Assembly (NCBI RefSeq): GCF_007991175.1
Contig: NZ_BJXV01000009.1
Span: 124,001 to 188,000, forward strand
Direction of reading: 5' to 3'
From: Halovibrio variabilis
Lineage (GTDB): Bacteria > Pseudomonadota > Gammaproteobacteria > Pseudomonadales > Halomonadaceae
Length of the DNA stretch: 64,000 nucleotides
A program made the translations under genes and the position numbers. Shown here in pieces: positions 58,835-62,567 of this stretch (the stretch's first letter is position 1; each line of letters begins with the position of its first letter). Under the pieces are notes generated by a model, which saw nothing but the letters and a program-made list of their open reading frames with translations, ran no database searches and was not told where the DNA came from.

Positions 58835-59263
58835 ATGAAAGTGAACGAGCTTGCCAAACGCGCTGGCGTCACCGCTGAAACCGTACGCCACTATGCTCGC
58901 GAACAGCTACTAGCCCCCGAGCGCCATCCGGATAACGGCTACCAGCTGTTCTCAGATACCGACTTAGAGCGGCTACACTTTATTCAACGAGCACGCAAAT
59001 TAGGTTTTAGCGTGGCGGAAATTCGCGAAATACTCGCCCACGCCGACCAGGGCGACTCACCCTGCCCGCTGGTTCGCGACCTGCTGGCTAGCCGCCTGCC
59101 CCAGGTTCGGGCCCGCATCGCCGAGCTCGAAGCGCTAGCCCAGCGCATGGAGCATGCCCTCGCCAGCTGGCAAGACATGCCCGACGGCACCCCAGACGGT
59201 CACAGCGTGTGCCGGCTGATTGAAAGCTTTCCCGATGCAGCGCCCGCGAAGGAGACACCATGA
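58835..59263 (+). CDS. MerR-family metal-responsive regulator, atypical ligand set
   Basis: A 142-residue MerR-type regulator. The winged helix-turn-helix ([22 protein letters not shown]) is at the N-terminus, then a dimerisation helix, then a metal-binding loop. Cys77 (GDSPCPL) aligns with ZntR Cys79, which is Ser77 in CueR, suggesting a divalent-metal type. However the loop has His123 and Cys126 ([10 protein letters not shown]), while the residue matching ZntR Cys114 is Trp112 and no C-terminal CC occurs. GAGG lies six bases before the ATG. It is coupled to copA by an ATGA overlap; the palindrome in its promoter implies autoregulation. Confidence 0.9.
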
Positions 59264-61863
59264 GTGACACTAACGCCTCTACTAACGCCCCTAATACAGC
59301 GCGTCACATCGCCAGTGGTGACCCGACGCCTACCACCCGCCATGTGCCGGACATGAGCTGCCAAGGCTGCGTAAAGCGTATGCGCGAAGCCATTCAGCAA
59401 ATCGATCCTAATGCTGATGTCACAGGTACGCCTGACGATAAACGCCTGGAGGTCACCTCCCGCTTAGCGGATGACCAGCTTGACCAGGTATTGGCCGAGG
59501 CAGGCTATCCGCCAGCGGAGGCGGCTTTGGACGAAACAACCCCAGAAGCAACAGCCCCGGCAGAAACAGCAAAGCAACCCGAGACCGCGGCACCCGCTGA
59601 TGCTGAAAAGACCACAAGCGCCCATCGCCAGGGCCAGAAGCAGCGCCTGGCGATTAGCGGTATGACCTGCGCCAGCTGCGTTAAGAGCGTTCAGAAAGCG
59701 CTTGAGCGTACTGAGGGCGTCGATACCGCCAGCGTCAATTTTGGCAGCCACTCCGCCCAGGTGTTTGGCAATGCTAAGCCCCAGGCGTTGGTCGCCGCCG
59801 TGGAATCGGTGGGCTACGGAGCGGAGCCCATCGTCGATATGCGTGAAGCCGAACGTACCCGCGCCGAGCGGGATGCTAAGACCTACCAGCGACGGCTGCG
59901 TGGCAGCGCGATCTCGCTGGCCCTGGCGATCCCCTTGATGCTGAGCATGTGGTTTTTTCACCCTCACCCCGTGGGGCTGGGGCGTGTTTACTGGCTGGTG
60001 ATTGGCCTGCTCACGCTGGGCATTATGGCCTTCCCCGGGCGGCACTTTTTCGTTAACGCCTGGAAGCAGTTCAAGCACCATCAAGCCAATATGGATACGC
60101 TGGTGGCCATGGGCACCGGCACCGCCTGGCTGTACTCCACGGCGGTAGTGCTGTTGGCGCCCTGGCTACCGGACATCGCTCAGGGCATCTATTTTGAAGC
60201 CTCAGCCATGGTGATCGGGCTGATTCTGATCGGCAATGCCATGGAGCTGCGCGCCCGGGGCCGCACCAGCGACGCCTTAAAGCGCCTGCTAGACCTGCAG
60301 AGCCCCACAGCGCGAGTGATACGCGACGGCCAAGAGCAGGAGGTTGAGATTGATGCCGTGCAGACTGGCGACCAGGTACGGGTGCGCCCCGGCGAGCGCT
60401 TGCCGGTGGACGGTGACGTTGTTGAGGGCCAAAGCCATATTGATGAGTCGATGCTTACCGGCGAACCACTACCGGTAGCCAAGCACGTCGGTGATGAGGT
60501 CAGCGCGGGCACAGTGAATGGCCGCGGCGGGCTGGTCTACCAAGCGACCCGAGTGGGCACCGACACCCGCCTGGGGCAAATTACCGAACAGGTCGCCAGC
60601 GCCCAGAACTCGCGCCCGCCGATTGGCGAGCTCGCCGACCAGGTTTCCAGCGTGTTCGTCCCTTCGGTGATGATTATTGCCGTACTCACCGCCCTGGCGT
60701 GGTTCAATTTTGGCCCTGCCCCCGTGGTGATCCATATGCTGGTCACGGCAACAACGGTGCTGATTATTGCCTGCCCCTGCGCACTGGGCCTGGCGACGCC
60801 GATTTCGACCATGATCGGCGTTGGTAAAGCCGCGGAACACGGCGTGCTGGTGCGCAGCGGCGAAGCGCTGCAAACCGCCAGCAAACTCACCACGCTGGTC
60901 GTCGATAAGACCGGCACGCTCACCCAAGGCAAGCCCAGCGTCACCGATGCACAGATGTTTGACGTCGAGCAATCTACCGCGTTGGCGTTGGTGCACGCGC
61001 TGGAGCGCGGCTCCGGACATCCGCTGGCAGCAGCGTTAATGGCCTACGTGGATGAGCACAACGCTGAACCGGCCGAGATCCATGATTTCGACAGCGTGAC
61101 CGGTGGTGGGGTAAAAGCCCAAACCAGCGACGGCCGTGCACTGCTACTCGGCAATGCGCGCCTGCTGAAAGAGGCCGGCGTGGATCTTACAGCGGGTGAA
61201 GAGCAGGCCCGCGCTCTTGAGGAACAGGCCCGCACGCTGGTGTATCTAGCGGTGGATGGCAAACTTGCCGCCCTGTTTGGTATCAGCGACCCGCTTCGCC
61301 ACGACACCTTGGCCGCGATTAAACGCCTGCAAAAAGACGGCTTAACCATTGTGATGTTAACCGGTGACAACGAGCACACCGCCAAGGCCATTGCCCAGGA
61401 AGTCGGCATTGATGAGTACCGCGCGGGCCTGCTACCCGAAGACAAGCACGCCGAGATCGAGCGCCGCCAACAGGCAGGGGAAATCGTTGGCATGGTGGGC
61501 GATGGCATCAACGACGCCCCCGCGCTGGCCCGGGCGAATGTCGGCTTTGCGATTGGCCAAGGCACCGATGTGGCCATCGAGAGCGCAGGCATCACGCTAA
61601 TGCGCGGCTCGCTGCATGGCGTAGCGTCAGCGATAGAGATCAGCCGCGCCACGCTGCGCAATATCAAGCAAAACCTGGTGGGTGCGTTTGGCTATAACGT
61701 GCTGTGCATCCCCATCGCCGCCGGAGTGCTCTACCCGCTCACCGGCACGCTGCTCTCACCCATGATCGCAGGTGCCGCCATGTCGCTGTCATCGATTACC
61801 GTCGTCAGTAACGCCAACCGCTTACGGCTATGGACATCACCCAGCCAGGAGGACGACGCATGA
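59260..61863 (+). CDS. copA: Copper-translocating P1B-type ATPase
   Basis: Pumps Cu(I) out of the cytoplasm. The 867-residue product has two N-terminal metal-binding domains: MSCQGC (Cys34, Cys37) and MTCASC (Cys137, Cys140), joined by an Ala/Glu-rich linker (about 90-125). Eight helices follow with the CPC metal site (505-507), the phosphorylation motif DKTGT (Asp549), [16 protein letters not shown], and the Cu(I) signature GYNVLCIP and [17 protein letters not shown] His-rich HPHP loop is present between the first helices. It overlaps the regulator by four bases, and the next ORF starts in its stop codon. Confidence 0.96.
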
Positions 61864-61931
61864 GTATATTGATCAACTTGGCAGGCCTGGGACTGATCGC
61901 ACTGATTGTGTGGTGGTTCTGGCTTAGATAG
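61860..61931 (+). CDS. 23-residue hydrophobic peptide translationally coupled to copA
   Basis: ATG overlaps the copA TGA (ATGA), and AGGAGG sits seven bases before it, a strong ribosome binding site within the copA end. The product is a single membrane helix (start MSILINLAG, then [12 protein letters not shown]) ending with TAG. Similar LIVWWFWL segments head small membrane-anchored cupredoxin-like proteins that, as I recall, can follow copper ATPases, so this may be a remnant or a stand-alone accessory peptide. The YitT gene's stop codon lies only six bases further, on the other strand, so no cupredoxin domain follows. Confidence 0.6.
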
Positions 61932-61937
61932 ATGTTT

Positions 61938-62567
61938 CTAGCTAACCCCAATATAACGCCCTGGCTTATGGTTAAGGGCGATGATTAGGTTGAGGGTCAG
62001 CGCCCCCAGTACCGAGTAGCCCACACGATCCAGTGGCAGCTGAGTCAGCGCAATCAGCAGAATGACGCCATCGATGGCTAGTTGAACATAGCCTGCGCGC
62101 AGGCCGTGTTTATCCTGCAGGTAGAGGGCGAGGATATTGATACCGCCGAGGCTGGTGCGGTGGCGAAACAGCATCAGCATGCCAATGCCCATCAGCGCGC
62201 CGCCCATTAAGGCGGCGTAGAGCGAAGGCACGTTGGCAAACTGCACCCAGCCTTGGGTTAACTCTGAAAACAGCGATACCAAGCCGATGGCGGCGAAGGT
62301 GCGCAGGGTAAAACTCCAACCCATGCGTTTAACCGCCAAGTAGTAAAACGGCAGATTAATGGCAAAAAAGTACACCCCAAAGCCCCAGCCGGTGACACTG
62401 CTGGTCATATAGCTCAACAGCAGCGCCAGGCCCGCCGTACTGCCGGTGAGCAGCACCGCATGGGTGTAAAAGGTGACGCCCAGGGCGACAAAGAAAGTGC
62501 CCAGTAGCATCGCCATGACATCTTCATAGGGGCGATGTTGATCCTTGGGTAAATCTTCCACGCGCAT
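61938..62567 (-). CDS. YitT family membrane protein
   Basis: A 209-residue inner-membrane protein with about five or six hydrophobic segments (first near residues 18-38: MAMLLGTFFVALGVTFY). The pattern LLTGSTAGLALLLSY and RHRTSLGGINILALYLQDKHG marks the YitT/DUF161 family. Its usual C-terminal soluble DUF2179 domain is absent, so this is the short form. Substrate unknown. It converges on the copA operon and is 42 bp from the end of recJ. Confidence 0.88.
   Translation of the reverse strand: MRVEDLPKDQHRPYEDVMAMLLGTFFVALGVTFYTHAVLLTGSTAGLALLLSYMTSSVTGWGFGVYFFAINLPFYYLAVKRMGWSFTLRTFAAIGLVSLFSELTQGWVQFANVPSLYAALMGGALMGIGMLMLFRHRTSLGGINILALYLQDKHGLRAGYVQLAIDGVILLIALTQLPLDRVGYSVLGALTLNLIIALNHKPGRYIGVS

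Follow-up and report, generated by a model that had tools for sequence, protein, structure and literature searches.

The last gene of a copper operon of Halovibrio variabilis encodes a 23-residue membrane protein that, judged from its sequence, is homologous to the N-terminal leader helix of CupA-type copper chaperones and lacks their copper-binding domain. The gene was found in a stretch of 64,000 nucleotides (positions 124,001 to 188,000 of contig NZ_BJXV01000009.1, assembly GCF_007991175.1; hereafter the window, numbered from its first letter), where it lies directly behind copA, the gene of a Cu(I) P1B-type ATPase. It is a conserved protein gene under purifying selection, and the helix is under nearly the same constraint after loss of the copper domain. 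We consider it probable that this stripped-down descendant of a CupA-type chaperone is a single-helix accessory subunit of CopA.

A conserved small gene in the genus

The frame, as read directly, runs from an ATG at 61860 to a TAG ending at 61931; Met1 is its sole methionine, it has no cysteine, and its tail ends in arginine. The ATG overlaps the TGA of copA (61861-61863), and six bases (61932-61937) lie between the peptide's stop and the stop codon of a gene on the minus strand. An in-frame ATG at 61830, giving a reading of 33 residues, was rejected because it is not the conserved start.

The peptide is present in 60 of the 61 sampled genomes of the genus (E 2.6e-9 to 1.8e-4). All 60 copies are intact (23-26 residues, ATG start, unbroken frame), and all have CopA directly upstream and a ribosome-site motif (AGGA, GGAG or GAGG at -16 to -5). 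The ATGA overlap is kept in 59 of them; at the sole locus without it (L006, genome G054), the 3' part of the CopA frame is interrupted, as was also seen in L244, which has an identical peptide. No two of the 60 DNA stretches are identical, and they encode 44 different 22-residue peptides. The proportion of synonymous differences (pS) is 0.69 and that of nonsynonymous differences (pN) 0.12, with a codon-bootstrap pN/pS of 0.09-0.27, and the ratio of nonsynonymous to synonymous rates (dN/dS) is 0.069, with dS near saturation. For comparison, a stretch of 100 codons close to the CopA end has a dN/dS of 0.047 (59 genus genomes), not far from the value for the peptide.

These results agree with a preliminary description of the window, which had reported a single-helix membrane peptide of 23 residues starting on the copA stop codon, with an AGGAGG at the proper distance and an end six bases short of the opposite gene's stop codon. 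The gene is also the genuine one suspected there, with its own ribosome site, residue-level constraint and purifying selection; neither of the outcomes named there as refuting, a lack of conservation or an interrupted frame, was seen in the genus.

The only genus genome without the peptide (G036) also lacks a CopA ortholog, having three P-type ATPase matches with 33% identity at best. Because a FixS/CcoS gene (67-residue product, PF03597 E 6.6e-23) stands directly behind the best match, we take this ATPase for CcoI. The two genes overlap as ATGA (locus L285), a layout like that of copA and the helix.

Homology to CupA-type proteins

The same helix is encoded behind copA in three forms: bare (23-32 residues), with a short His-rich tail, or fused to a cupredoxin domain (about 120 residues). 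We assigned the forms by length, as bare (at most 32 residues), long (at least 100) or intermediate. The long form is homologous to CupA, the membrane-anchored Cu(I) chaperone of pneumococcus. It consists of the helix and a Cupredoxin_1 domain (PF13473; E 1.2e-25, 2.5e-29 and 2.2e-25 in the three tested). Its best sequence relative in the PDB is CupA itself (4f2e/2mry, E 1.4e-15) and the next solved one is the cupredoxin domain of pneumococcal CopA (E 8.5e-10); its Cys and Cys-x-Met-x-Met copper-ligand positions align with those of CupA. The AlphaFold2 model of a Marinobacterium long form (mean predicted local distance difference test score 86) has a helix at residues 2-22 followed by strands, and a fold search with it returned CupA first (4f2e, E 6.8e-11) and 4f2f second.

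One profile retrieves bare and long forms alike. Since the same helix, in the same place, continues elsewhere into a CupA-type cupredoxin, the peptide is the CupA-type leader helix without its copper domain. The window's frame stops at residue 23, with no Cupredoxin_1 domain and none of the Cys ... Cys-x-Met-x-Met ligands, though these are present in the long relatives. The preliminary description had offered the surviving anchor of a cupredoxin-type protein as one possibility; this is what the region after copA in relatives points to, as the peptide occurs there bare and, in other genera of Gammaproteobacteria, fused to Cupredoxin_1. When the peptide and 58 trimmed relatives were scanned against Pfam and NCBIfam, no model covered them and every match stayed below threshold; the best ones, Ost4 (0.014, 4 of 58), MgtU (0.024, 1 of 58) and ATP_synth_reg (0.054, 1 of 58), were rejected as chance.

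To count the forms, we used a sample of 369 genomes of the class, three of them from the family, and the best 80 of the 319 confirmed stretches from a scan of named genomes (the named set). The two sets partly overlap, and copies of one strain can count twice. The class sample has 38 bare, 28 long (a false one, L155, included) and 2 intermediate forms; the named set has 52, 21 and 7, respectively. The bare form is the only one among the 60 loci of the genus and the 39 further loci of the family, and one named Kushneria copy (L256) has 34 residues. The His-rich tail occurs in six named intermediates of 34-40 residues from Marinobacter and Tamilnaduibacter (L212, L214, L248, L252, L254 and L259), as if a short metal-binding tail had replaced the cupredoxin domain.

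CupA-type proteins were found in many Gammaproteobacteria, in Deinococcus and in cyanobacteria. Of the copies in 36 annotated plasmid records, 28 lie in cupredoxin/plastocyanin genes, 3 in 'hypothetical' genes and 2 in genes of TPR proteins; the remaining three are from Candidatus Manganitrophus, one within an ATPase gene and two without a listed gene. No clear bare form is among these 36. Natural fusions of helix, cupredoxin and ATPase, with the helix at the N-terminus, occur on the Streptomyces plasmid pFRL4 (L178:3986-6790) and on a plasmid of Candidatus Manganitrophus (Nitrospirota; L356:2501-5063). The Streptomyces fusion additionally has a C-terminal YHS domain. On an Anabaena cylindrica plasmid (L183:2581-3513), a cupredoxin protein with two cupredoxin repeats is encoded near a copper-type ATPase gene; its extra N-terminal hydrophobic stretch is a helix of this kind without the Asn.

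A conserved face shared by bare and long forms

To compare the helices, we aligned 82 diverse ones from bare, intermediate and long forms by positions 3-17, leaving the aromatic motif unused. An earlier table of 79 rows had kept only those with [WYG][WY]F[WLRF], which fixed F20 by construction; the 82-row table leaves the conclusions standing. N6 is found in 81 rows, F20 in 82, W19 in 80, W21 in 78, W18 in 74 and G9 in 76, the other six having Ala. The same residues, in this order, are found in 49, 49, 49, 45, 43 and 44 of the 49 bare rows and in 28, 29, 27, 29, 27 and 28 of the 29 long rows. Locus L139 has Thr instead of N6, and the helix of L151 has Leu at position 21. In the membrane part (positions 4-17), conservation is concentrated on a single face centered at 200 degrees (p 0.0011, 82 rows), with 199 degrees (p 0.0006) for the bare and 205 degrees (p 0.007) for the long rows; this face comprises N6, G9, I13, I16 and F20. 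The helix is thus under nearly the same constraint with and after loss of the domain. A helix serving merely to anchor a soluble domain would need neither a fixed face nor retention once the domain is lost.

Loss of the copper-binding domain

The cupredoxin domain was lost in at least one relative, where the event can be traced directly. L133 and L151 are from the same genus: L133 is long, whereas L151 has kept the helix, about 150 bases of the domain are gone, and a short out-of-frame remnant of the domain's C-terminal end, CQMQMYRGSLIVH, follows the helix stop.

The bare form also looks to have been derived more than once on a CopA tree of 124 sequences (117 loci and 7 plasmid records; 16 loci with too little CopA were skipped, and named Halomonadaceae were left out as repeats). 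Among the outgroups, Anabaena and Deinococcus have the long form and Streptomyces the fused one. The bare, long and intermediate states need 13 changes on this tree; the bare label alone needs 11, at least 4 of them forced by starred branches, and shuffled labels did as well in 0 of 500 trials, counts that by themselves give no direction of change. When 18 family CopAs scored as helixless were added (L273 among them has a diverged helix), the bare label needed 16 changes, at least 8 of them forced.

A separate cupredoxin gene near bare helices was not found in loci L001-L177 and L187-L266 (E 1e-3). Outside the long forms, cupredoxin matches occur only in L151, as the remnant, and in L143, a broken or frameshifted long form. 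The number of HMA domains of CopA was considered as a correlate of the bare or long state and dropped, as the differences track lineage and the motif used for counting (loci with sufficient N-terminus: 84 bare, 30 long, 8 intermediate); bare and long forms of the class sample alike mostly have one HMA domain in CopA.

Distribution and linkage to copA

A profile built from the genus peptides (E <= 0.01, a few of the weakest matches being doubtful) has matches in 103 of 121 family genomes and 70 of the 369 class genomes. A broader profile, A2, built from rows selected for the aromatic motif, matches 75 of the 369 class genomes (61 of 271 genera, E <= 0.01) and 37 of 398 genomes of the phylum (E <= 0.001). 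The named set (best 80 of 319) includes Vreelandella, Halomonas, Onishia, Billgrantia, Salinicola and Kushneria. Further members are Marinobacter, Tamilnaduibacter, Alcanivorax/Alloalcanivorax, Marinobacterium, Thalassolituus, Hahella, Microbulbifer and Seongchinamella, as well as, among others, a Competibacteraceae and a Zetaproteobacterium metagenome-assembled genome. One family match (G140; E 0.0051, half the profile covered) is doubtful. The genome G415 (C2) has two helix copies about 6 kb apart (2893562 and 2899823).

CopA is encoded directly upstream in all 39 further family loci, in 63 of the 68 class-sample loci and in 77 of the 80 named loci. Five of the eight exceptions are still within about 1.1 kb of CopA: it lies 0.5-1.1 kb upstream in L137, L141, L196 and L221, and in L223 the helix gene (2633-2704) converges with copA on the opposite strand. 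The stretches examined for L114, L155 and L156 hold no CopA. We rejected L155 as a member (E 0.0072, long by length alone, its genome G219 absent from the broad-profile matches), and L156, a weak match adjoining an unrelated gene, is doubtful. Between copA and the long (cupredoxin) form, L196 and L221 have about 650 bases that may hold another gene. In the class sample, 36 of the 63 linked loci keep the ATGA overlap and 41 of all 68 loci have the ribosome-site motif, with the peptide motif maintained.

The helixless CopAs of the family fall in few groups of the tree (3 changes); hence, the helix looks like a lineage-specific part of some CopAs. A second look at the 18 family genomes without a match revealed a diverged helix in one only (L273, genome G081).

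Membrane topology and partner

Tail charges were counted in rows selected by the aromatic motif (186 of 188 bare, 47 of 49 long). Lys or Arg stands before the helix in none of the 47 long and none of the 186 bare rows, and within eight residues after WWFW in 46 and 90 of them, respectively. This charge pattern makes it likely that the long form is oriented with the N-terminus outside and the C-terminus in the cytoplasm (N-out/C-in); for the bare form, which in the window has a terminal Arg, the same orientation is plausible. As the cytoplasm is where the core of P1B pumps begins, the fused ATPases should place the cupredoxin there too.

The genome of the window has no PF13473 protein above cut-off (one match, 17.9 bits vs 27) and no stand-alone HMA chaperone of the CopZ type (5 PF00403 matches, all in frames of 722-879 residues). 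It is therefore improbable that the helix works for a domain of this kind encoded at another site. As CopA is the constant neighbor, we infer that the helix binds CopA.

Genomic context

The features of the locus are collected in Table 1. The regulator and copA genes also overlap as ATGA (59260-59263), so that all three operon genes are joined start to stop. The nearest NCBIfam models of the regulator are ZntR, MerR and CueR, each matched below its cut-off. A terminator scan found no terminator-like site directly 3' of the peptide gene (7 sites overall, 3.6 expected, standard deviation 2.1), and a promoter scan gave 1 promoter-like site, with 1.3 expected.

Table 1. Features of the copA locus in window coordinates.
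Feature	Position	Strand	Basis
Small-protein gene, 23-residue single-helix membrane protein (bare CupA-type leader helix)	61860..61931	+	direct reading, profile search, dN/dS
Ribosome-binding site AGGAGG, within the copA 3' end, 7 nucleotides 5' of the peptide ATG	61847..61852	+	direct reading
ATGA start/stop overlap of peptide gene and copA	61860..61863	+	direct reading
copA, Cu(I) P1B-type ATPase (copper-translocating), 867 residues, two HMA domains	59260..61863	+	Pfam and NCBIfam scans
MerR-family metal regulator, ZntR/MerR/CueR-like	58835..59263	+	NCBIfam, under every equivalog cut-off
Converging gene	61938..62567	minus	its stop codon faces the peptide gene

Discussion

We propose that the peptide would be made in step with CopA through translational coupling and would insert N-out/C-in, with the WWFW cluster at the cytoplasmic interface. 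As a single-helix subunit, it would use the face N6-G9-I13-I16-F20 to pack against CopA's membrane domain, and once bound it may stabilize the pump or tune its copper entry, much as other P-type ATPases have KdpF or sarcolipin at their side. Where the long form occurs, this docking helix would also bring the cupredoxin to the copper entry site. A wider claim would be that a regulatory subunit made of a single helix is dedicated to copper P1B-ATPases. Rather than a mere anchor, the CupA leader would then be this subunit, and the cupredoxin an add-on lost on more than one occasion, or replaced by a His-rich tail as in Marinobacter, with the helix staying bound to CopA. We see the chances of this wider claim as evenly balanced.

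Several observations weigh against the subunit interpretation. The 18 of 121 family genomes without a match all carry related P1B ATPases nevertheless (43-53% identity), and only 75 of the 369 class genomes have the helix; since some CopAs thus lack it, the helix is not a general requirement of CopA. The partner of the helix could also be a protein other than CopA. The C-in orientation rests on charge, and 11 of the 186 bare rows have only acidic tail residues. Over positions 4-22, the face signal is weaker (p 0.021 for all rows, 0.006 for bare, 0.10 for long), the loci were found with profiles containing the conserved residues, which favors their conservation somewhat, and N6 is missing from both fused ATPases and from the Anabaena protein. 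The trees were built quickly under LG+G4 and many of their forks are weak, and changes of state may also be horizontal transfer. Finally, a pneumococcal CupA helix carrying Bacillus subtilis CopZ failed to replace CupA, according to a passage of a 2020 review (PMC7558416); in pneumococcus, the helix is therefore not sufficient.

Other roles for the helix can be weighed with the same data. It could be an aid for membrane insertion or folding of newly made CopA, assembling or stabilizing its helices without becoming a lasting subunit. The gene directly behind copA and the ATGA coupling are in line with this, and a precedent exists in CcoS, a small membrane protein whose gene comes right after that of the copper ATPase CcoI; however, CcoS is no homolog of the helix (no FixS match), and the copper-binding domain of the long form points to copper handling, not to folding. 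We regard this role as rather unlikely. Instead of CopA, the helix may dock a soluble copper chaperone, some other membrane protein or further copies of itself in an oligomer. A conserved face says only that the helix packs against something, and Asn residues inside membrane helices are known to drive contacts between helices. Yet CopA is the only constant neighbor among those tested, the window's genome has neither a stand-alone HMA chaperone (PF00403) nor a PF13473 protein over cut-off, and natural fusions join the helix to the ATPase, which makes a different partner unlikely.

That the peptide is an inert remnant, a functionless anchor left behind by the cupredoxin, would fit its being the leftover of a longer protein and the case of L151, in which the loss looks recent and position 21 is Leu. 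A dN/dS of 0.069, the absence of broken frames in 60 genus genomes, and nearly the same fixed residues and face as in the long form across many genera make this very improbable. Coupling or RNA alone could matter, the frame being a spacer whose translation protects the copA 3' end whatever the peptide: in the genus, the overlap is kept in 59 of 60 loci and the ribosome site in all 60. However, synonymous positions are free while residues are fixed (pS 0.69, pN 0.12), and in the class sample the peptide motif stays where overlap (36 of 63) and ribosome-site motif (41 of 68) often do not; we give a spacer hardly any credence. Size and hydrophobicity are all that speaks for a small hydrophobic toxin or some unrelated stress peptide, a reading just as implausible given the homology to the CupA-type leader and the constant place behind copA. 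An accessory subunit of CopA is the reading that we retain.

Among known systems, CupA of Streptococcus pneumoniae is alike in its N-terminal single helix and its gene in the copA operon, and the peptide's long relatives match it in sequence, predicted fold and copper ligands. The likeness of the helix to the CupA type rests on the helices of these long relatives, with which it was compared. In contrast to CupA, the window's protein lacks both the cupredoxin domain and the copper ligands, and its gene follows copA, whereas a passage of PMC3849628 gives the pneumococcal order as copY-cupA-copA. Deletion of the CupA leader raises copper sensitivity, and the corresponding passage (PMC5646241) proposes contact with CopA as speculation. 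The 2020 review states in part of its text that CupA-like proteins are confined to few streptococci besides S. pneumoniae (PMC7558416), and a section of PMC8478169 lists an Alteromonas merR-copA-cupredoxin cluster with a 'cupredoxin domain-containing protein', the name CupA being absent from that section.

KdpF of the potassium pump KdpFABC is likewise a tiny single-helix protein encoded beside a P-type ATPase. It belongs with a different ATPase class, no KdpF family is among the Pfam and NCBIfam matches of the peptide and its 58 trimmed relatives, and KdpF is an established subunit (PMC10654040, in part), whereas binding of the peptide to CopA is our deduction. Sarcolipin and phospholamban of animal Ca2+ pumps are also small single-helix subunits of P-type ATPases (same passages), but they are eukaryotic, of the P2A class and without shown homology. 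The passages of this review of P-type ATPases assign subunits of one helix to the Ca2+ and Na+/K+ pumps of animals, as well as KdpF to the K+ pump, and name none for heavy-metal pumps; one legend prints 'P1B' for the KdpA-containing pump, where the text says P1A. The gene of CcoS (FixS, PF03597), a small membrane protein, stands directly behind a P1B copper ATPase gene and overlaps it, as in G036. CcoS differs in being longer (67 residues in G036), in its charged soluble tail and in serving the cbb3 oxidase, and no PF03597 match was obtained in Pfam scans of the peptide and 58 trimmed relatives. It is needed for cbb3 oxidase activity, which copper partly rescues (PMC8267372, in part). PMC8475189 does not mention CcoS, and PMC10903887 does not mention copper.

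CupA and its leader, as well as long neighbors of copA, were already known; new, as far as we found, is a CupA-type protein reduced to its helix. Full-text literature searches, partly limited to the best-ranked papers, returned no report of the bare and His-tailed forms. The finding extends CupA-like proteins beyond streptococci to many Gammaproteobacteria, Deinococcus and cyanobacteria, and provides annotators with a gene of 23 residues for which neither Pfam nor NCBIfam has a model. Compared with the deletion of the CupA leader in S. pneumoniae, nature has here done the reverse experiment: the copper domain is gone, and the helix and its conserved face remain. This makes a direct test of the leader's role possible in a culturable genus that is for the most part non-pathogenic. 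If the peptide is a subunit of CopA, then, as far as we found, no heavy-metal P-type ATPase has had a single-helix subunit described before. Its retention suggests that the helix alone still does something for the pump.

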